NCBI RefSeq assembly: GCF_036898825.1
Contig: NZ_JARUND010000001.1
Coordinates: 3,162,001 to 3,226,000, forward strand
Direction of reading: 5' to 3'
Length of the DNA: 64,000 nt
Source of the DNA: Streptomyces sp. B21-083
GTDB lineage: Bacteria; Actinomycetota; Actinomycetes; Streptomycetales; Streptomycetaceae
Shown here: positions 41,319-51,096 of the stretch, one piece after another
Position numbering within the stretch: the stretch's first letter is position 1
Layout: the number at the start of each line of letters is the position of its first letter
Notes under the pieces: model-generated
What the model was told of the DNA's origin: nothing
The model's database searches: none
Seen by the model: the letters and a program-made list of their open reading frames with translations, nothing else
Position numbers and translations under genes: made by a program

Positions 41319-41462
41319 CGCGGCACCTCCCCGGTTCCATCCTCCACCAGTCCCAGTCTGGCCCCCTACTTTTGTCCTAAGCCCATGGGGGCACTCGCGA
41401 AAAGCCGTCTCCCAAGGAGTAATGTCCAACCTGAGAAGACGATCACGAGGAAGGAACGCTCC

Positions 41463-41858
41463 ATGCTTTCCCGCCTGTTTGCCCCCAAGGTCAAGGTCAG
41501 CGCACACTGCGACCTGCCCTGCGGTGTGTACGACCCGGCCCAGGCCCGCATCGAGGCGGAGTCGGTGAAGGCCGTGCAGGACAAGATGGCCGCCAACGAC
41601 GACCCTCACTTCCAGGCGCGCGCCACCGTCATCAAGGAGCAGCGCGCAGAGCTCGCCAAGCACCACGTGTCGGTCCTGTGGAGCGACTACTTCAAGCCCC
41701 CGCACTTCGAGAAGTACCCGGAGCTGCACCAGCTGGTCAACGACGCCCTGAAGGCCCTCTCGGCCGCCAAGGCATCCACGGACCCGGCGACGGGCCAGAA
41801 GGCGCTGGACTACATCGCCCAGATCGACAAGATCTTCTGGGAGACCAAGAAGGCTTGA
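41463..41858 (+). CDS. sodN: Nickel superoxide dismutase SodN
   Basis: 131 aa from the ATG at 41463. A 14-residue propeptide (MLSRLFAPKVKVSA) precedes the nickel hook HCDLPCGVYDP, with His1, Cys2 and Cys6 of the mature enzyme; the rest is a four-helix bundle. It disproportionates superoxide in the cytosol. In Streptomyces, transcription is nickel-induced and the mRNA is targeted by an sRNA from sodF (literature). Its last 13 nt form the left end of an integrated island; the stop codon and reading frame are intact. Confidence 0.97.
   Translation: MLSRLFAPKVKVSAHCDLPCGVYDPAQARIEAESVKAVQDKMAANDDPHFQARATVIKEQRAELAKHHVSVLWSDYFKPPHFEKYPELHQLVNDALKALSAAKASTDPATGQKALDYIAQIDKIFWETKKA
41846..41858 (+). 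repeat. attL-like site in sodN
   Basis: CAAGAAGGCTTGA encodes the last SodN residues and the stop codon. It differs from the right copy at one base (T for C). Confidence 0.75.
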
Positions 41859-41865
41859 TCTATGG

Positions 41866-42860
41866 CTAGGCCGTCTGACCTGCGGTTTCGCGGGTCGCAT
41901 CGCCTACCTGTCCGCACCCGGTCCGCAGGCCGCCGAGAACGGCGTCCATGACGGAGCGGGTGCGGTCTTTTTCGCCCGGCCACAAGTGCGCGTAGATCCG
42001 CAGCGTGATGACGGCGGACGCGTGGCCGAGAACGAGCTGGACCTGCTTGACGCTCGCTCCGCCGGCGATGAGGGCGGAGGCGTAGAAGTGGCGCAGGTCG
42101 TGGGTCACCACGTGCGGGTGTTCGACGGGTTTGCGGCCCTCACGCCCGGCCGCCTCGTTCTCCGCCGCCTGGAGCGCCTTGCGGGCGCAGTTCCATTCTG
42201 TCTTCCAGCGGCGGTAGTTGAGGGGCTCGCCCTCCTCCATCGTGAACAGCCACTCCTTCGAGGGCCGTGCCGCGAGGTGCGTGAGGAGCACGTCTGTAAC
42301 GACCTCGCCGACCGGGACCGTACGCCGGGACTTGCCGGTCTTCGGCGGACCGATCAGGCCGGACTGGAGATGCTGACGCTCGACACGGATCGAACCGCTC
42401 TTGAAGTCGACGTCCGAGACATTCAGGCCGAGCAACTCGCCTATGCGCAAGCCTGATCCGGCCAGGACGACGATCGCCGTTCGGATGTATAGACGTGCGC
42501 TGCCGGGGCGCAGTTACTCGGAGAGCTTCTTGAAGAGGGCCTGGATGTGGCTGCGGCGCAGGGACGCCATGGCGTAGGAGCCGAGCGCGGGTATCAGGTG
42601 AACCCGCAGGGCGTTGTCGGTGATACGGGTGCCCGCCTCACCGGCGATCTGCTCGCCCTCCCACTTCGTCGCGTACTTGTCGAATGAGATCCTGGCGGCG
42701 CGCGGGTCGACGTACAGGCCGGTGACCACGCTGGCCGTGACCTCGTCAAGCCAGCGCTGGGCGTCGAGCTCGCGGTCGAAGTGGCGGGCGTGCTCCTTGC
42801 CGTCGAGGTCGCGGTAGCGGGCCGCCATTTGCCGTTGGGTTGCTTTTGAATGTTCGCCAA
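41866..42860 (-). pseudogene. Tyrosine recombinase (integrase), inactivated
   Basis: The start would be TTG 42860 (MANIQKQPNGKWR) behind GGGAGAA. The frame then breaks near 42827, where one missing G separates KWR from ARYRDLDGKEHARH. The N-terminal SAM-like domain continues to FKKLSE and a TAA at about 42514. Beyond it, in the same frame, the catalytic part resumes at IRTAIVVLAGSGLRIGELLGL, so about 55-60 residues are missing. Catalytic Arg (GLRIGE), HDLRH and Tyr (RIYAHLW) remain. Frameshift plus internal deletion make it inactive. Confidence 0.85.
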
Positions 42861-42881
42861 GTGGCTTCTCCCTTGGGTTGG

Positions 42882-43068
42882 CTATCGGTGGTAGCCGCCG
42901 CTCTCGATGTGCTCGGTGAGGGTGCGGGCGTCGCGCTCGTCGCCCATCAGGCGGAGGCACTGCTCGTGAATGGCTTGTGAGCTGTCGGGGTGGGTCTGAA
43001 TGTGCTCAGCGATGCCGACGACAGCGTGGTGCAGGCGGTCTTCGGCCTCGCGTGTCTCGCAGTCCCGG
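42882..43068 (-). pseudogene. Remnant of a small element-encoded protein
   Basis: The C-terminal part of an open frame (WCRDCETREAEDRLHHAVVGIAEHIQTHPDSSQ ... ESGGYHR, ending at 42882) has credible composition and a CxxC. Upstream of about 43070 the same frame becomes antisense to another fragment. It lies where pSAM2-like elements often carry a small gene before int. Identity unknown. Confidence 0.45.
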
Positions 43069-43071
43069 CAC

Positions 43072-43210
43072 CATCGCCGAGTACGAGCAACTGCTGGCCA
43101 TGACCGATACGTTGCTGTCCGACCCCCGCCAATTCTTCCGCTCGTACTCGGCCGCCAAGATCGGCCGCATGATGACCGCACCAGCCCGCAGGAGCGTTCC
43201 CGCCCCATGA
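43072..43210 (+). pseudogene. C-terminal fragment of an unidentified gene
   Basis: In-frame peptide TIAEYEQLLAMTDTLLSDPRQFF ... RSYSAAKIGRMMTAP, ending at 43210 and overlapping the ASCH start as ATGA. The 5' part is missing at a junction with the opposite-strand remnant. Probably the truncated first gene of a former two-gene unit. Confidence 0.4.
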
Positions 43211-43609
43211 CCGACACCACCGCCCGCGTCCACGAGCTCAACCTCTACCGCCAGTACTTCGACCTCGTCGCCGCGGGCACCAAGACAATCGAGGCGCGGG
43301 TCAAATACCCGCACTCGCCGACCTCGCCGCCGGTGACATCATCCGCTTCCGCATCAAGGGCACCGACGAAACCTGCGAGGTGTACGTCAAACAGGTCACC
43401 GAATACGCCGACTTCGAGTCTCTGCTCGACGGCGAGGGACCCTCCAATGTCAACCCACCGCCACTCGCGACCAGCAATTGACCAACATCCGCACCATCTA
43501 CCAGCCCCAGAAAGAAGCCCTCGGTACCCTCGCCATCGAGATCACTCTCGCACAACGCCCTGAATTGCCAGCCCGGCCAACGGGTCACTATTATCGAGAA
43601 CCAAATTAG
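43207..43609 (+). pseudogene. ASCH-domain protein, frameshifted
   Basis: Starts MTDTTARVHELNLYRQYFDLVAAGTKTIEARVKYP, clearly ASCH-like. It then shifts frame near 43311 to continue as LADLAAGDIIRFRIKGTDETCEVYVKQ, and shifts again near 43452 to NIRTIYQPQKEALGTLAIEI, ending at TAG 43607-43609. Each break is explained by one missing base. ASCH proteins are predicted RNA-binding or nucleic-acid-modifying factors. Not functional as read. Confidence 0.75.
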
Positions 43610-43682
43610 GCCCGAACTCTAGGGCCCAGCATACGCAGGGCCCACGATCATCAGAGAACTCCCGATCGGTGACGCATCCTCC

Positions 43683-46600
43683 TCAGATACCGACATGCAC
43701 GTATGCAGCCCAAATGTCGGGCCGGTCCGGGATAGAACGACGGAGGGTGTTGATCGCCTTGTTCAATGCTTCTGCCATATCTGCGAACGGAAGGCCACGA
43801 GCGCGAAATGCCTCTTTATAGAAACCGTACACCAGGACGGGGGTAAGCGTGTCGGATATGGGCCACAGGCTCCCAATTACATGAGGGTAGCCCGCGACAT
43901 GGAAGGCTCCGGTGATGTGAACGAATTCGTCGGCGAGAGCCGCTGAGGTACTGCTCGTGCTGCAGGCCGACAGGAAGGCCAGCAGGCTCTTGTCGGTGCG
44001 CAGCGCCGCGATCTGAGTCATCGTCAGAGGGTGGGCCCGATGATCATGCAAGAGCAGCCGGCTGGACCCGGGGTTCCGAGGGTCAGTCTGTGAGTGGCAG
44101 GCAAAGTGCATCACATGCGATCCACTTATCGCTGCCAGCACCGACTCATTGACAGCCTTCTCTCCCGCCAGTGTCTGGACAGCTGCACCGAACATTCCGC
44201 GCAGCAGACGCGCTTCCACGCTAGAGCCGGGGAGTTCCACCGGATGCCCGGGAGTGAACGGCATGGCTACGACTCCGACGTGCAACGCCTCGATCGAGGG
44301 TCGAACTGGCAGATTCCGGGCGTGATGACTGAGCGAGTACAGGGTGGGAGAATACGAAGAAATGACCTGGTCCAGCACATTCTCTTGACCCTGTTCACCT
44401 CCACAAGAGCTGTAGTCACCGACAGCATGCAGAGGCAGCAACGACAGCGTCCCGGTAGGCACCCACCAGAGCCGGATCGGCGCTTCAGGCTCGGAGTGCC
44501 GATCCTCGTGGAGACGGCGGACGGTTCGCAGAACGGGCTCCGCCACATTGCGCCAACACCAAGTCATAACCTCTTTCAGTTCACTCAAAGCTCGGCCCTC
44601 CGCAGACCTGTCCGGACCCTGCAGAGACATCCGCGCACGCATGAACCGTTCCGCAGAGGCTTCCACGCGCTCTTTCGTCAGACCACCGAGCGGGACCCTG
44701 ACGACCCTCCCAGCGTCGACCACGAAGGCGTCACACCCAACCTCGCTGACGTTCACCACCGCAGCCGTTCCGGGCAGAGAATCCATAATTTCGACCAGCG
44801 GTGGAAGCGTGCCGAACCCTGAAAAGCCCTCGATCCGTCGAATGCTGCTGATGACGTCCTCGAGATCTCGCTCCAAGCGGGCCCGGTGCTCTCTGTCACG
44901 AAGACCGTTGACGGCCAACCGAGCTTCCGCAAGGGAGGAAGAGGAATCCAACGCGGGATCTGTCTCCAGCCGATTCGACAACCACATCAGCCGCTCCACA
45001 AGTTTTGGATGCTCGCGACGGAGCTCGTCGAGCCGGCCACGCACCATGAGAGCCTGCGCCATGAGAATCCCTCGCCCCGACTCCAGCACCGCCAGGGCTT
45101 CCTCGTCGGTCCTGCCGGCAACTACCGCACAGGCTGCAGCCAGAGACGCCAGTCCGGCGAAATCCTGCAGCCAATGGTGGGCGTCCTGACGGACCGCCCA
45201 CCGAGGCACAAGCCGAGGAAGCAGGGTCAGGGCGTAGCGCAATGCCTCAAAGGCTCCTTGGGGATCATGGGCCTCGATCCGTGCGACTCCCAGGAGGTGT
45301 GCACACTGGATTCGGCTGGAGAGCGATCCGCTCCCTTCATCCAGAATGCCCTTTAACAGAGCGCTGACCTTCGCCAGCGTCTCCGCGTTTGCCGACGGAC
45401 CATCGAGCGCAAGCAGGGCTCGACAGTAGGCGACCGAGAACCGCACTCCCATCAAGGATCCTCGGTCCATGAAAGACAGTGCTTTTTCCAGGGACCGAAC
45501 GCTTTCTTGGAGGTCGGTCAATTCACCGGTGAAACGGTGACGTTCAATTAGACTCGCAGCATAGTTCGCCCAATGTCGGGAGAAGAGTAGGCTTTCCTCA
45601 CTGGTGTCGGACAGGGCAGCTTTGTGTAGCCGGATGGACATGTCGATGTCGGCCCGGTCTCGCGTGATCCGAAAAATGGATGAGTACGCGGATGCAAGGT
45701 TCGACTTCATACGGGCGAGGTCAGGCACGTCCTCACTGTCCACGAGATCAAGAGCGCGGTGACTCTCGTTTATCGCTCGTTCCAGGTCGCGCCGGTCCCC
45801 TGTACGTTCAAAGCGAGTAACGAGAGCGTTGGTGAGGTTCGACCTGGTAACCGCCTCCGAACTCTTTGCGGAGTGCTCCATTTCCGGAGGGAATTGACGA
45901 GCAATCTTCGCCGCCTCTACTAGATACTTTATGGCGTCGTCCAGATCCGAAAGCCGCTGGGTGCCCACACTCCTGTTCTGTAGAGCTTCTCCGAGGCAAG
46001 CAAATGCAATATGTTGCGAAAAAAGATCTTCCGCCGCCGCGTCCACGGCTCGTAATGCATGCTCCACAGCCTCGTCGGCGTCCCCTGGAGAACCCGTCTC
46101 CAGGTACCTGTCCTGGAGTGCGTGGCTAAGATTCGTAAGAATCCTGGACTCGAGCGCTCCGCCGTCCCGGACAAGAGAAGCCGCCGACCGAGATCGCTCG
46201 ATCGAGGCGTCCAGATAATGCTCCTTTCCCAGCATCCGGTAAGCTTGCTTGAGCGACGCACTATACAAGGACAAATGTAACGCCGCCTCATCATGGTGCA
46301 TTGCGGAAGCGGTGACAGAGGCTGCACCCGCAGCCAATGCCTCCTCGATATCGGAGGCTCGACCCGTTAGATAATGGCGCGTCCTGAGATCGTCACCGAG
46401 GTTTGCCCAGTACCTGGGAGCCTCTGGATCGTCCAGACGGCAGAGGGACAGCACCTCATAGCCGACAGCTATGGCACGTTCCAGGTCAGCCGTGTCGCCA
46501 TGCGCTTGATAACTCACCCCGTACGTGAGCGCGAGTATGAATGTGCACTCGACCGCTTCCCGCCCGCCGTCGTCGCGCGCCAGTTCGCAGATGATCGTCC

Positions 46601-47546
46601 ACAAGCGGATGCGCCAGGACAGGCGGCCACTCGTCACCGTACCTGCCAAACACTCTGTAAGGAATGCGGATAGGTTGCCGAAGAAATCACTGTCGACATG
46701 TGCGAGACCAGGGGCACCAAACCCGTACCTGCGCCCTGCCGTCAGAGACAACAGAATCAGGAACGCCTGCGCATGCAGGCTGGGTTCCGCATGATTAGAA
46801 TTCCTGGGATCGAGCCATGAAATGGTCTCCTCTAGGTATCGGAAGTCCTCATCAGTGCACAGCGAGGACACCCAAGCTTTCAAGGAATTACTCAAAGCGC
46901 CCACATACTCTCCGCGAAGACTGACATCATCATGGATAGCAGCTGCCGCTTGCGCCGAGTAGCCGATCGCCTCGCGAATGTCGTCGCCCTGTCGGGTGAT
47001 TTCAAATTTAAGCAAGAATGCCACGCCAAGATCGCGCACGAAGTTGCTCGCAGAACCGTCCTCTGGCGTCCGGGACAACAGAACGGAATGAAGGAGGCGT
47101 ATGACTCGGTCGAGTTCTGCGTGATCGCCTTGCATGGCGTGCCCGAGATCCCTTTGAGCGACGACTTTCCACAGGTGCACGTCGAACGGGTTGGAGGTTC
47201 GGGCGATGAAGGGACCGCACAACGGAAGGAAGCCGGAAGGCACGCGCTCAGGCGCGAGCCGATAGAGTTCTGCACCCGATGCCAACAGACCTGGGAGTGC
47301 CTCTCGGTCACGCCCTGCCGGGAGCCAGGCGAAAAGAAAGTAATGGTAATTCGAAAGTACCAACCAGGCATCTGCCCGCTCTTGCACAGAAATCCCGTCG
47401 GCCTCGTCTGGACGAGCACAGAGCCGCGTCAGATGCTCGACAGCGGAGTATGTTTCCGGCGAGTCGAGTACCGCCATGCCATCCGTACTGGCCAAAGCTT
47501 GCGCGAGTCGGCGCTGTACGTACGAGAGACGATCGACAAACTCCAT
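43683..47546 (-). CDS. Large helical-repeat protein with C-terminal CHAT protease domain
   Basis: 1287 aa from the ATG at 47546 (GGAAGGGA upstream); GTG 47564 is an alternative. Residues about 1-850 are helical, with TPR-like units (for example LERAINESHRALDLV, DAIKYLVEAAKIARQ, DEAVEHALRAVDAA). A basic helical linker (about 860-960) and a CHAT caspase-like domain (about 960-1287) follow, with predicted catalytic His1151 in HFACHS and Cys1195 in SACSTS. TPR-CHAT proteases serve as effectors in bacterial conflict systems (for example the Csx29 protease). It is the last gene of a four-gene operon; the trigger and substrate are unknown. Confidence 0.85.
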   Translation of the reverse strand: MEFVDRLSYVQRRLAQALASTDGMAVLDSPETYSAVEHLTRLCARPDEADGISVQERADAWLVLSNYHYFLFAWLPAGRDREALPGLLASGAELYRLAPERVPSGFLPLCGPFIARTSNPFDVHLWKVVAQRDLGHAMQGDHAELDRVIRLLHSVLLSRTPEDGSASNFVRDLGVAFLLKFEITRQGDDIREAIGYSAQAAAAIHDDVSLRGEYVGALSNSLKAWVSSLCTDEDFRYLEETISWLDPRNSNHAEPSLHAQAFLILLSLTAGRRYGFGAPGLAHVDSDFFGNLSAFLTECLAGTVTSGRLSWRIRLWTIICELARDDGGREAVECTFILALTYGVSYQAHGDTADLERAIAVGYEVLSLCRLDDPEAPRYWANLGDDLRTRHYLTGRASDIEEALAAGAASVTASAMHHDEAALHLSLYSASLKQAYRMLGKEHYLDASIERSRSAASLVRDGGALESRILTNLSHALQDRYLETGSPGDADEAVEHALRAVDAAAEDLFSQHIAFACLGEALQNRSVGTQRLSDLDDAIKYLVEAAKIARQFPPEMEHSAKSSEAVTRSNLTNALVTRFERTGDRRDLERAINESHRALDLVDSEDVPDLARMKSNLASAYSSIFRITRDRADIDMSIRLHKAALSDTSEESLLFSRHWANYAASLIERHRFTGELTDLQESVRSLEKALSFMDRGSLMGVRFSVAYCRALLALDGPSANAETLAKVSALLKGILDEGSGSLSSRIQCAHLLGVARIEAHDPQGAFEALRYALTLLPRLVPRWAVRQDAHHWLQDFAGLASLAAACAVVAGRTDEEALAVLESGRGILMAQALMVRGRLDELRREHPKLVERLMWLSNRLETDPALDSSSSLAEARLAVNGLRDREHRARLERDLEDVISSIRRIEGFSGFGTLPPLVEIMDSLPGTAAVVNVSEVGCDAFVVDAGRVVRVPLGGLTKERVEASAERFMRARMSLQGPDRSAEGRALSELKEVMTWCWRNVAEPVLRTVRRLHEDRHSEPEAPIRLWWVPTGTLSLLPLHAVGDYSSCGGEQGQENVLDQVISSYSPTLYSLSHHARNLPVRPSIEALHVGVVAMPFTPGHPVELPGSSVEARLLRGMFGAAVQTLAGEKAVNESVLAAISGSHVMHFACHSQTDPRNPGSSRLLLHDHRAHPLTMTQIAALRTDKSLLAFLSACSTSSTSAALADEFVHITGAFHVAGYPHVIGSLWPISDTLTPVLVYGFYKEAFRARGLPFADMAEALNKAINTLRRSIPDRPDIWAAYVHVGI

Positions 47547-47613
47547 GCGAGGAGTCCCTTCCACGTGAGCGCGACAGATGGTCAGGGGCGACCCGAGAAC
47601 GAGTCAAAGGCGG

Positions 47614-48579
47614 TCAGGTCTCGCGGCGCCTGTCCTGGAGGCACAGCCACACGCAGCACCCGCCGCTGAGCAGAAGTGCTGGCAGACAAACAGCAGCTAG
47701 TGCCATGCGGTACGTCACGGAACTCAGCGGCGGTAATACGACGAAGGCCAGGGGAACGACGGCGGTCGCGGCAGCCACGAGTACATGTGCGGCGGACAAT
47801 CGACTTGGTGTCGACAAGCGTGCGTTCAGCTGTCCCACCCACGTGTGGGGGTGGAACGCGCCCCAGGACCAGAAGAGATGACACACCGCCACCGTCGACG
47901 AGAGAATCACGACGCTGGCGCCGACTGCCCGGAGGACGATGAATGCCTGCATGCCGACTGCCAGGAGCCACGCCGTGAGGTGAGCGTGCATCTGTCCACG
48001 CAGTCGCGGTGTGAGGACCTCCGCCCGCGCCAACCAGTAGATCTCTCCGACGAATCCGGTACCTGCCAGCACGATGACGATTCCCCTGGACGCACTGACC
48101 GGGCCTGGGGGTACACATGCCAGGAGGATGCCGAACAGCAGGAGGACGATACCCAGGTGGTAAGCCGCCCGCGCCCGTCCCGCCCAGAGGGCGGCCTGTC
48201 GATAGTGGGAGTATTGAAGATTCCGGAGCCACTTGCTCGGTTGATCTTTGCGGAACTCGCCCGGATACCACTGCTTGAGCTCATCCGGAGTGCATACGTA
48301 GCGCTGAGCCCAGGCCGTCGCTTGCACGGCGGCCATCTGGGCGAGGCCGGCGCCGATATAGCAGGCCAGAGCAGCTTCGGGCCATCGGCTGAAGGCGTCC
48401 TTGGCATTCGGTGCAGTCTGCAAGATGAGCACGGCCAGCGTAAAACTCGTCCCCGCCAGAAGCGGAGCTGCCACCCCGCCACCAACAGTTATGCTATTTA
48501 GATAGCCGGTCGGCACCGGCTGAGTCCACACGTCACGGCCGAGGCGGGGGGCGGGGCGGGGTGCCCTGGCGCCGCTCAC
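47614..48579 (-). CDS. Multi-span membrane protein of the CHAT operon
   Basis: 321 aa from GTG 48579, which overlaps the preceding stop as GTGA. About seven or eight hydrophobic segments are visible: near residues 25-50, 60-85, 130-150, 155-180, 195-220, 225-240, 260-285 and 290-312. A cytosolic-looking, aromatic and charged loop lies between the second and third (CTPDELKQWYPGEFRKDQPSK). I recognise no family. Tight coupling to the CHAT gene (67-nt gap) suggests a membrane anchor, sensor or effector pore for the protease. Function unknown. Confidence 0.75.
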   Translation of the reverse strand: MSGARAPRPAPRLGRDVWTQPVPTGYLNSITVGGGVAAPLLAGTSFTLAVLILQTAPNAKDAFSRWPEAALACYIGAGLAQMAAVQATAWAQRYVCTPDELKQWYPGEFRKDQPSKWLRNLQYSHYRQAALWAGRARAAYHLGIVLLLFGILLACVPPGPVSASRGIVIVLAGTGFVGEIYWLARAEVLTPRLRGQMHAHLTAWLLAVGMQAFIVLRAVGASVVILSSTVAVCHLFWSWGAFHPHTWVGQLNARLSTPSRLSAAHVLVAAATAVVPLAFVVLPPLSSVTYRMALAAVCLPALLLSGGCCVWLCLQDRRRET

Positions 48580-48938
48580 GGCGCCTCGGCACGGACGCAG
48601 CCTTGTAGATGTTCGCCGTCGAGCCCGCCGCAAAGGCCGCACCAGCGGCCCTCACGGCCAAGGCCACGGGGGCCGCCAGTCGTCCACTCACAGCTTCCCT
48701 CTGCGATCCGCAGGATGCCGGATAATTCCGCAACAATCCGTTCAGCCGCGGCCTGCGAGAGAAACGCATCCTGCGTCACAAAGGAAACGTAGACCGCGGA
48801 GAGACCCACAGGAATGAGTGCGACCAATTGAGCGTGGTGGTGAGTCAGCGCAGCACGCACATCCAGTTGCGCTTGATCGTGATCTAGATCTGGCAAATCT
48901 CGATCAACACTAGCGAGCACAAGGCCATGATCTTGCAT
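48576..48938 (-). CDS. Small protein of the CHAT operon, Cys-rich C-terminus
   Basis: 120 aa from the ATG at 48938 (GGGGGAAT upstream). Residues about 25-90 look like a mixed alpha/beta core (HHAQLVALIPVGLSAVYVSFV ... AERIVAELSGILRIAEGSCEW). The C-terminal 35 residues carry four Cys with a CGLCGG pair and a late GC, a possible zinc knuckle or redox site. No known family recognised. Its stop overlaps the membrane protein start (GTGA), and its start overlaps the end of the upstream small gene by 29 nt. Confidence 0.65.
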   Translation of the reverse strand: MQDHGLVLASVDRDLPDLDHDQAQLDVRAALTHHHAQLVALIPVGLSAVYVSFVTQDAFLSQAAAERIVAELSGILRIAEGSCEWTTGGPRGLGREGRWCGLCGGLDGEHLQGCVRAEAP

Positions 48939-49203
48939 ATTCCCCCACCCCCAGGGGCGATCCACCCCGGCTCTCCAGCAGAAGAGCCCAGACACGGAGA
49001 TTGCCCGGTTCCGCCCGAAGGGAAACCCGACCACGACACTGTCGCGACACGCTCAATCGCAGCGTCGCCTCGATGACATCCAGCAGTTGCTCGTTGGTAC
49101 TTTGATTCGCCAGGAAGTCCGCGGGCTGTCGGCGACGGGTGAATCGTGGTTTTGGATCACTTTCCGTGCCAGAGCCACGGAGGGCCACCGAACCCGCGAT
49201 CAT
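48910..49203 (-). CDS. Small protein, first gene of the CHAT operon
   Basis: 97 aa from the ATG at 49203, 20 nt inside the right att-like site. The sequence is basic and contains RFTRRRQPADFLANQSTNEQLLDVIEATLRLSVSR and RVWALLLESRGGSPLG. No family recognised. No strong ribosome site is visible, and the frame also remains open across the att site into antisense of a core gene, so the start is uncertain. Whether it is a complete gene or was truncated on integration cannot be decided. Confidence 0.5.
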   Translation of the reverse strand: MIAGSVALRGSGTESDPKPRFTRRRQPADFLANQSTNEQLLDVIEATLRLSVSRQCRGRVSLRAEPGNLRVWALLLESRGGSPLGVGEYARSWPCAR

Positions 49204-49223
49204 GAACGGCTGTGGCTGATGTA

Positions 49224-49236
49224 CAAGAAGGCCTGA
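49224..49236 (+). repeat. attR-like site
   Basis: CAAGAAGGCCTGA copies the sodN 3' end and stop codon. Original downstream sequence follows, including the sodN terminator. Confidence 0.75.
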
Positions 49237-49251
49237 ACAAGCCTTCGGTGA

Positions 49252-49280
49252 AGGGCCGGTCGAGGTCGACCGGCCCTTTT
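49252..49280 (+). terminator. Original sodN terminator, displaced by the island
   Basis: Perfect 12-bp arms AGGGCCGGTCGA / TCGACCGGCCCT followed by TTTT, 15 nt beyond the right att copy. This is the expected spacing for sodN if the island is removed. TTCGCTGTCC-type direct repeats follow (49278-49327). Confidence 0.8.
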
Positions 49281-49351
49281 CGCTGTCCCCTTCACTGTCT
49301 TCGTTCGCTGTCCTCGTTCGCTGTCCTCCCCGCGCTGCCGTGCGAGCCCGC

Positions 49352-50215
49352 TCAGCGTCGGCACACGAGGATGCCCGCCCGGCAGCCGATCTCGAACGCC
49401 CCTTGGCGCGAGATCCGTTCGGTCGCGATGGCGCGGGCCCGCTCGATCGTCTCGTCGAAGGGCGCGTCGTACTGGTCCGCCCAGGCCCGGTACGACGCCA
49501 GGTACGCGACGACCGGCCCGGGGTCGCGGACCGTGACGGTGCTGAGGAGTTCGATCGTCCGCACCCGGCCGAACTGCTCCCCGAGGAAGGCCGGGGCCTT
49601 CTCCAGCGAGAAGCGGGTGCCGATCGAGAACCGGGACGGCTCCCGTCCGGCGCCGAGCACGTCGCTCGCGGCCCGGTGGAACAGGTCGTCGAGTTCGGCC
49701 TTGTCATCGGCACCATTGGTGGAGACGATCACCAGTCCGTCCGGAGCGATCACGCGCGACAGCTCCCGTACCGCCTGGGGGATGTCGGGCACGTGGTACA
49801 GCATGTGCAGCGCCAGGGCCGCGTCCACGCTCCCCCTGGCCAGCGGCAGCCGCGTGACGTCGGCCACGGCGACCGGGCCGGGGACGGTGGCGAGGATGCC
49901 GGGCGAGATGTCCAGGCCGAGCAGGGACAGCTCGGGCCGCTCCGCTCGCAGCCGCTGGAGATACGTACCGTTGCCGCAGCCCACGTCGACCACGCGCCCG
50001 CCGCCCCGTACCCCGTCCAACTGTCCGGCGACGATGCCCGGCAGGTCGTGACGGGGGGTCTGCCATCGGTAGATCGACTGACGGGCGGCCAGGTCCCGGT
50101 CGCTGCTGTACGCACTGTCGGCGAGGCGGGTGCGGTCGGTGGCGGCGGAGGTGGAGGAGGGGGTGCGGGCGGTCACGTCAGCGGCTCCCGGTGGGGTCAG
50201 GCGCGTGGCGCTCAC
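49352..50215 (-). CDS. Class I SAM-dependent methyltransferase
   Basis: 287 aa from GTG 50215, overlapping the PPK2 stop as GTGA. N-terminal disordered stretch (about 25 aa), motif I VVDVGCGNGTYLQRL, GLDISPGIL, and ALALHMLYHVPDIPQAVRELSRV as in UbiE/MenG-type small-molecule methyltransferases. The substrate is unknown. The coupling to PPK2 suggests co-expression rather than a shared pathway. Confidence 0.9.
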   Translation of the reverse strand: MSATRLTPPGAADVTARTPSSTSAATDRTRLADSAYSSDRDLAARQSIYRWQTPRHDLPGIVAGQLDGVRGGGRVVDVGCGNGTYLQRLRAERPELSLLGLDISPGILATVPGPVAVADVTRLPLARGSVDAALALHMLYHVPDIPQAVRELSRVIAPDGLVIVSTNGADDKAELDDLFHRAASDVLGAGREPSRFSIGTRFSLEKAPAFLGEQFGRVRTIELLSTVTVRDPGPVVAYLASYRAWADQYDAPFDETIERARAIATERISRQGAFEIGCRAGILVCRR

Positions 50216-51096
50216 ACGCCGTCGTCATCCTCCCCCGCCTCCAGCAGGTTCGCCGCCGCACCCACGATGCGCGGGTCGGGCCTGCCCACGACCTCCTCGT
50301 CCTTGTCCGTGTAGTCGAAGCGGGCCAGGACGCTGCGCATCGCCTCCACCCGCGCCCGCTTCTTGTCGTTGCTCTTCACCACCGTCCATGGGGCCTGTTC
50401 GGTGTCCGTCGCGCGGAACATGGCGACCTTGGCCGCCGTGTAGTCGTCCCAGCGGTCCAGGGAGGCGAGGTCCATGGGGCTCAGCTTCCACTGCCGTACG
50501 GGGTCGACCTGGCGGATCGTGAAACGCGTGCGCTGCTCGCCCTGGGAGACCGAGAACCAGAACTTGATCAGGTCGACGCCGTCATCGGCGAGCATGCGCT
50601 CGAACAGCGGGGCCTGGCGGGTGAAGCGGCGGTACTCGTCGTCCGTACAGAAGCCCATGACGCGTTCGACGCCGGCCCGGTTGTACCAGGAGCGGTCGAA
50701 GAGGACTATCTCGCCGGCGGTCGGGAGGTGTTCGACGTACCGCTGGAAGTACCACTGGCCGCGTTCGCGTTCGGTGGGCTTCTCCAGTGCCACCACGCGG
50801 GCGCCGCGCGGGTTGAGATGCTCCGTGAAACGCTTGATCGTGCCGCCTTTTCCGGCCGCGTCCCGGCCCTCGAAGACGACGACCAGCCGGCGGCCGGTCC
50901 GCTTGATCCAGCTCTGCAGCTTCAGCAGTTCGATCTGCTGAAGCCTCTTGTGCAACTCGTACTCCCTACGGTCCATGCGCTCGGGGTACGGGTAGTTCTC
51001 CCGCCAGGTCTCGACCGGCGTACCGTCCGGCCGGACGAGGACGGGTTCGTCGAGGTCGCTGTAGTCGACCTTCAGTCCGGACATCAGTGGTGTCAT
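50212..51096 (-). CDS. ppk2: Polyphosphate kinase 2 (PPK2 family)
   Basis: 294 aa from the ATG at 51096 with AAGGAGG 8-9 nt upstream. Walker A GRDAAGKGG, Walker B/lid region DRSWYNRAGVERVMGF and KFWFSVSQGEQRTRF mark a one-domain PPK2. These enzymes use polyphosphate to phosphorylate nucleotides. The sequence does not reveal the class or the preferred nucleotide (ADP or AMP). Confidence 0.94.
   Translation of the reverse strand: MTPLMSGLKVDYSDLDEPVLVRPDGTPVETWRENYPYPERMDRREYELHKRLQQIELLKLQSWIKRTGRRLVVVFEGRDAAGKGGTIKRFTEHLNPRGARVVALEKPTERERGQWYFQRYVEHLPTAGEIVLFDRSWYNRAGVERVMGFCTDDEYRRFTRQAPLFERMLADDGVDLIKFWFSVSQGEQRTRFTIRQVDPVRQWKLSPMDLASLDRWDDYTAAKVAMFRATDTEQAPWTVVKSNDKKRARVEAMRSVLARFDYTDKDEEVVGRPDPRIVGAAANLLEAGEDDDGV

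Follow-up and report, generated by a model that had tools for sequence, protein, structure and literature searches.

A recurrent gene trio with a CHAT protease, a membrane protein and a small knuckle protein in Streptomyces sp. B21-083, a candidate self-defence or cell-death system

Gene content of the locus

By reading a 64,000-nucleotide stretch of the 10.5 Mb genome of Streptomyces sp. B21-083 (contig NZ_JARUND010000001.1, positions 3,162,001 to 3,226,000; hereafter the window, with coordinates counted from its first letter) we identified three consecutive minus-strand genes, which encode a small protein with a cysteine-rich knuckle (SM2, 48576-48938), a membrane protein (MEM, 47614-48579) and a TPR-CHAT protease (CHAT, 43683-47546). 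Since the trio recurs at unrelated loci, the gene set is more than a product of chance, and its presence in distant relatives makes it look like a genuine, hitherto uncharacterised bacterial system of self-defence or cell death, as judged from sequence comparison. The features of the trio are as follows.

48576..48938, minus strand: SM2, 120 amino acids, first gene of the operon, with an N-terminal alpha/beta part and a C-terminal CxxC-x6-H-x3-C knuckle (from homologues)
48597..48641, minus strand: C2HC knuckle of SM2, Cys100, Cys103, His110 and Cys114 (from SM2 alignments)
47614..48579, minus strand: MEM, 321-amino-acid membrane protein, with a GTG start that overlaps the SM2 stop as GTGA
48016..48579, minus strand: conserved core of MEM with four transmembrane helices (4-TM) and a long loop between TM2 and TM3 (45–55% identity to six sisters)
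43683..47546, minus strand: TPR-CHAT protease of 1287 amino acids (PF12770; match in the PDB to TPR-CHAT 7zoq, E 3.6e-4)
43689..44570, minus strand: CHAT domain, about residues 993–1286 (PF12770 match)
44094..44096, minus strand: His1151 codon, presumed catalytic dyad (FACH motif)
43962..43964, minus strand: Cys1195 codon, presumed catalytic dyad (LSACS motif)
44727..46559, minus strand: helical-repeat (TPR-like) region, about residues 330–940 (aligned region of other CHAT proteins)

The CHAT frame reads as the initial annotation had it, with both motifs intact. Its length is 1287 residues from an ATG or 1293 from a GTG further upstream, and it matches PF12770 with E 3.2e-40 and 138.8 bits against a curated cut-off of 24. 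Both His1151 and Cys1195 lie within the stretch aligned to 7zoq, the sole solved relative found by sequence, and they are presumed to form an intact catalytic dyad. TPR models match the helical-repeat region weakly (0.022 and 0.55). PF12770 is present in 231 of 295 genus genomes and the whole-CHAT search gives matches in 165 of the 295, its own genome included; there was no match in phages. One further genome, G414 (locus L148), which belongs to family group f20 like both Frankia genomes, holds 18 PF12770 matches, several of them clustered.

The GTG start of MEM is backed by an N-terminal GRDVW alignment with Frankia canadensis and the genomes G974 and G977. Seven to eight membrane spans were first proposed; a low-confidence structure model has eight helices of at least 20 residues. 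What relatives match is the 4-TM unit of about 170 residues, in which 34 columns are invariant across nine sequences. MEM is found in 44 of the 295 genus genomes when a match to either half is counted, and relatives of it in 20 of 394 class genomes, its own included in both; no relatives were found in viral contigs or plasmids. Neither MEM nor SM2 reaches a Pfam or NCBIfam cut-off or matches in PADLOC. We also considered a haemolysin III origin for the C-terminal half of MEM, whose pairwise matches were to HlyIII proteins in both of the two cases tested. Seven MEM proteins leave PF03006 unmatched at E up to 10; because this family gives no backing and the C-terminal half aligns weakly with sister MEMs, we claim no such fusion.

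SM2 matches its F. canadensis homologue by phmmer (E 1.4e-5), and a tblastn search with the window protein gives matches at six of eight sister loci (E 3e-5 to 0.025); the copies in a Frankia metagenome-assembled genome (MAG) and in Nonomuraea were assigned by position, size and aligned motif. Cys100, Cys103 and His110 are invariant in all six copies of one alignment and again in a nine-row alignment, the exceptions in the motif being G808, which has CxC, and the Frankia MAG copy, which is without the last Cys. The CxxC...H...C motif occurs 17 times, at 13 loci, on the MEM strand no more than 600 nt from the gene, and 28 times elsewhere in 1.13 Mb of loci, in a count that misses the Frankia MAG and G808 copies for the reasons just given, books L189 and L190 as elsewhere since their MEMs were then unlisted, and includes the near-copies L146 and L179. 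Residues 36–54 of the window SM2 (48777-48833) form a strongly hydrophobic stretch with a hydropathy of 1.93, so that this copy may touch the membrane. Hydropathy above 1.6 is seen in the window and, at another position, in G808 (1.75); the other seven of nine copies stay below.

Recurrence of the SM2-MEM pair and its partners

We counted a locus as a close relative when its MEM reaches 40% identity with that of the window or of Nonomuraea. This gave nine loci, namely the window, Frankia MAG NGEE_A_bin25, F. canadensis, Nonomuraea turkmeniaca DSM 43926, G779, G808, G863, G974 and G977; the set was drawn up leaving aside matches to the C-terminal half, G796, G845, G950 and a second match in G974. 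At all nine, MEM is directly preceded on its own strand by an SM2-like gene, and the spacing ranges from 22 nt of overlap to a gap of 23 nt. SM2-MEM is thus a conserved pair.

A CHAT gene adjoins the pair at six of the nine loci, with varying gene order. It is recognised by Pfam in the window, Frankia MAG, Nonomuraea, G808 and G863, with G779 as the sixth locus. The order is CHAT-SM2-MEM in the Frankia MAG and SM2-MEM-CHAT in G808, as in the window, while in Nonomuraea CHAT is divergent from SM2-MEM. The initial annotation named as refuting it the case that homologues of its genes never co-occur elsewhere, and this check did not refute it: CHAT, the membrane gene and the second small gene stand together in five other genomes (Frankia MAG, Nonomuraea, G808, G779 and G863).

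Elsewhere the pair has other company. In F. canadensis it stands alongside a MoxR-type AAA protein (bpMoxR at 24.7 bits against a cut-off of 27), a 659-residue protein and a 454-residue protein, the last of which is unmatched in Pfam but shows by eye His and Cys motifs resembling those of CHAT. The partner in G974 is a protein of 970 residues with weak AAA matches and, by eye, a Cys-His-Asp pattern like that of a transglutaminase-type protease, and in G977 no partner of SM2-MEM is recognised. Other MEM partners are CHAT proteins with NB-ARC/AAA domains or with AAA and TPR. At L189 (7382-12157) SM2-MEM is next to an AAA protein whose N-terminal part looks transglutaminase-type by eye, and the MEM there has an extra C-terminal domain.

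In the wider 4-TM MEM family, a PF12770 match is no more than 4.2 kb away at seven of 33 loci (G156, G212, G169, G624, G525, G623 and G414), while random positions would give 0.14 such loci (P about 6e-11); because the 6-kb proximity limit was set after the data had been seen and the genomes are related rather than independent, we use this excess as a guide figure. The 33 loci include two close relatives, G624 and G501, and exclude the window, G030 (contig-end fragments), G012 (whose match covers 49 residues and contains a stop) and 22 genomes matched in the C-terminal half alone. Taken with the recurrence of the trio, this genomic association supports a partnership between CHAT and SM2-MEM, as far as sequence can tell.

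A second membrane family near CHAT relatives

Our survey of CHAT relatives took in 25 neighbourhoods (L063-L082 and L103-L107), 24 of them chosen by CHAT alone and L082 also for MEM; they comprise the 19 top matches of the whole-CHAT search, G169 (which also has MEM) and five of 40 plasmid records, with some near-copies among them. At 19 of the 25 a different membrane family, of about 310 residues with two to three hydrophobic spans, is encoded within 1.3 kb of the CHAT relative. The window is therefore a minority type among CHAT neighbourhoods. A protein of about 130 residues often accompanies the 310-residue protein, for example on a Rhodococcus opacus plasmid, and the whole forms a larger, separate association between CHAT and a membrane protein. 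A MEM relative also occurs near a gene of the 310-residue family at L083, L085, L092, L095, L096, L099, L147, L182 and L183, the first six of these beside an sdh operon as judged by gene pattern; our own profile found no CHAT gene in any of the nine stretches.

Conservation and selection

No other part of the set is as conserved as the 4-TM core, and the TPR region and SM2 are among the least conserved. Identity to the window is 45–55% for the MEM core (six sisters), 23–35% for the C-terminal half of MEM (five; the Frankia MAG copy is without this half), 35–42% for the CHAT domain (four), 26–29% for the TPR region (three) and 23–34% for SM2 (six). This contrast suggests that the TPR region is the sensor of the system. 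Between Nonomuraea and G779, NG86 values of non-synonymous over synonymous substitution (dN/dS) are 0.54/1.23 for SM2, 0.20/0.71 for the MEM core, 0.66/1.02 for the C-terminal half of MEM and 0.34/0.71 for the CHAT domain. As dS is near saturation and GC-biased, we take the figures from this one sister pair to indicate purifying selection only, strongest on the membrane core.

Genomic setting and flanking frames

The neighbouring features are as follows.

41385-41858: nickel superoxide dismutase gene (sodN), left of the gene set
41866..42828, minus strand: integrase remnant, a single frame that is interrupted by an internal stop and has lost 159 bp (PF00589, PF14659; compared with L135, L138, L139 and L140)
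41967..50218, no strand: interval inserted when compared with the empty-site-like G013; sodN and a PPK2 gene flank it
43000..43563, plus strand: ASCH-like frame beside CHAT (PF04266, E 0.0057, below cut-off)
48910..49203, minus strand: SM1, first small frame of the initial annotation, probably not a gene
48533-48769: SM2b frame, rejected as a gene

The integrase matches PF00589 in one half and PF14659, below cut-off, in the other. Its decay, already noted from the letters, is real, because its frame is broken by one internal stop and 159 bp present in each of the four relatives L135, L138, L139 and L140 are missing from it; beyond 43063 the window DNA diverges from all four. Read gene by gene, L135 and L140 have an intact 384-residue integrase and an element-type gene set, and the window has the remnant only. 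The integrative-element family to which these loci belong adjoins the nickel superoxide dismutase gene (41385-42828 in the window). In G013 the counterparts of window positions 41966 and 50219 sit 160 bp apart, which bounds the insertion. Third-position GC is low in the trio (CHAT 0.65, MEM 0.73, SM2 0.58) compared with sodN and, to the right, the PPK2 and methyltransferase genes (0.89–0.91), which fits a foreign origin. Among 61 genomes, the operon DNA was matched solely in short pieces. The ASCH-like frame finds DNA matches in plasmids; all 21 records are of Streptomyces, and most carry an ASCH annotation. An inverted repeat (GGGCCGGTCGACC..., 49253-49276) between the methyltransferase gene and SM2 is a possible terminator.

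The initial annotation had counted four genes in the operon, with a 29-nt overlap between the two upstream frames, the GTGA overlap and a 67-nt gap between MEM and CHAT. All three junctions are present, and the set holds for CHAT, MEM and SM2, whose homologues co-occur elsewhere. The four-gene count fails at SM1: eight sister loci gave no match to it up to E 1, nothing better than E 0.083 came from the other loci searched, and no family reached its cut-off in Pfam, NCBIfam or PADLOC. The SM2b frame likewise had no relatives in the loci compared, the eight sister loci included.

Proposed mechanism and alternatives

A role in conflict or cell death would fit the CHAT family, the patchy presence of the genes and their mobile setting. 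The initial annotation inferred that a small protein or the membrane protein may sense a threat and that CHAT may cleave a host target or a partner in the operon. Because the SM2-MEM pair is constant and its partner varies, being a protease-like domain joined to an NTPase or to repeats, we take CHAT as the sensor and trigger and SM2-MEM as its target; proteins that join such parts are proposed sensors or switches in conflict systems (PMC7159879). A constant membrane pair with a variable sensor or protease would suit a common executor. We therefore favour, with somewhat less than even confidence, a scheme in which the TPR-like region of CHAT would sense a ligand linked to an intruder and so unleash the His/Cys protease. 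The protease would then cut or release the SM2-MEM membrane module, most likely at SM2 or a loop of MEM, whereupon MEM may permeabilise or depolarise the membrane and the infected cell would die or go dormant. Here we infer the trigger, the direction, the substrate and the outcome.

Several observations weigh against this scheme or its parts. No CHAT gene is recognised by profile next to the pair at three of the nine close loci, and the one in G779 is recognised solely by a self-built profile and is split over two frames. In the wider family 26 of the 33 MEM loci are without a PF12770 match within 6 kb, and six of those fetched stand beside an sdh operon, by gene pattern, with a gene of the 310-residue family. 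That other membrane protein is also the commoner partner of CHAT relatives, as the 19 of 25 sampled loci attest. A tblastn search with the window SM2 at E 1 misses the counterparts in Nonomuraea and the Frankia MAG. The models of SM2 (pLDDT 49) and of the eight-helix MEM are both of low confidence. Finally, the CHAT tree is unresolved, leaving the window unplaced and the MEM-linked CHATs not shown as one clade, and we dropped it as evidence of partner exchange.

The opposite direction of signalling, which we consider rather unlikely, would make MEM and SM2 the sensor: a membrane event such as phage adsorption, DNA entry or envelope damage would be passed through SM2 to CHAT, and a host protein would be cleaved elsewhere. 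MEM can have a role of its own, since at several loci its relatives, some with a small Cys-rich neighbour, lack CHAT, and the TM2-TM3 loop with its flanks is among the most conserved stretches of MEM, as a docking surface might be. However, it is the TPR region of CHAT that diverges fast, which we read as the mark of a sensor, and conservation peaks in the membrane core.

A further possibility, somewhat less probable again, keeps CHAT as the protease and turns the output into a signal as in type III-E systems, with CHAT cutting SM2 or freeing it from MEM so that its knuckle could act on nucleic acid or a regulator. The precedent is Csx29, which cleaves Csx30, a binder and inhibitor of a sigma factor (PMC10028731), and SM2 does have a knuckle-like motif. 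Yet SM2 is among the less conserved parts (23–34%), the scanned copies reach no cut-off of a nucleic-acid-binding family and the Frankia MAG copy has lost its last Cys.

It is improbable that the trio serves housekeeping or developmental membrane proteolysis with no tie to mobile elements or phages; CHAT proteins are indeed common in the genus (231 of 295 genomes) and all PADLOC models went unmatched, but MEM is patchy (44 of 295), third-position GC is low and the genes lie at the remnant of an integrative element. Less probable still is that the genes are drift neighbours on a decayed element, CHAT being one of the many of its genus and SM2-MEM a separate pair: the abundance of PF12770 means that chance neighbours exist, and the element has lost other genes, but the trio recurs across genera with altered gene order and MEM loci show the proximity excess to PF12770.

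Comparison with known systems

CHAT proteins of unassigned purpose are common in the genus, and one of them is now tied to a defined pair of a knuckle protein and a membrane protein with four to eight TM helices. This pair recurs with several kinds of switch protein. The result is a compact system that can be cloned and in which the substrate to test is obvious. Our searches of an open-access library, from which most subscription papers are missing, turned up no published trio that contains this membrane protein and this knuckle protein.

MEM was compared with the XK-related scramblases XKR4, XKR8 and XKR9 (PMC8298096), which we count among the closest known systems. The structural likeness to caspase-activated XKR scramblases is weak and unproven. 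Seven MEM proteins leave the Pfam XK-related family unmatched at E up to 10 with HMMER filters on, and Foldseek returned nothing at E 0.001 for the MEM model. It would be a long shot to see in MEM an XKR-like lipid scramblase or channel switched on by CHAT, with SM2 as its removable plug, making it the prokaryotic equivalent of XKR8/XKR9, which caspases activate in apoptosis, the 4-TM relatives being a half-size ancestral form.

Bacterial gasdermin systems, in which a protease switches on a membrane effector, share with the proposed scheme the idea of a protease-switched effector, whereas MEM is a multi-pass protein without a Pfam match at cut-off. In the MoxR-vWA ternary and EACC1-caspase systems (PMC7159879) the likeness lies in a caspase-fold protease, membrane-linked partners and an occurrence in multicellular bacteria. 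The F. canadensis pair adjoins a MoxR-type ATPase as well, whereas the three window products match neither MoxR nor vWA. The two-gene EACC1-caspase system is described there with a small partner built on a single conserved TM helix. In the window set, MEM has about eight helices in its low-confidence model, and SM2 has one hydrophobic stretch in the window and G808.

Type III-E and Borvo are both listed as CHAT systems in a conflict setting (PMC10952713). Borvo shares the CHAT domain, while the window has three linked genes; five window frames match no PADLOC model at E up to 1, in a library not checked for a Borvo model. Craspase, the type III-E CRISPR system of Csx29, is close in several respects, as described in PMC10028731: Csx29 likewise joins TPR and CHAT, with H615 and C658 as its catalytic residues, the His and Cys fall in the aligned stretch, and the protease cleaves Csx30, a substrate encoded next to it in the same locus. 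The two differ in that the window CHAT scores 29.6 bits on NF041237, where the cut-off is 300, and has alongside it a knuckle protein and a multi-pass membrane protein. CHAT proteases are thus already known from conflict settings; the combination of one with SM2 and MEM appears to be new, and the trio could reveal how bacterial caspase-like proteases reach the membrane.

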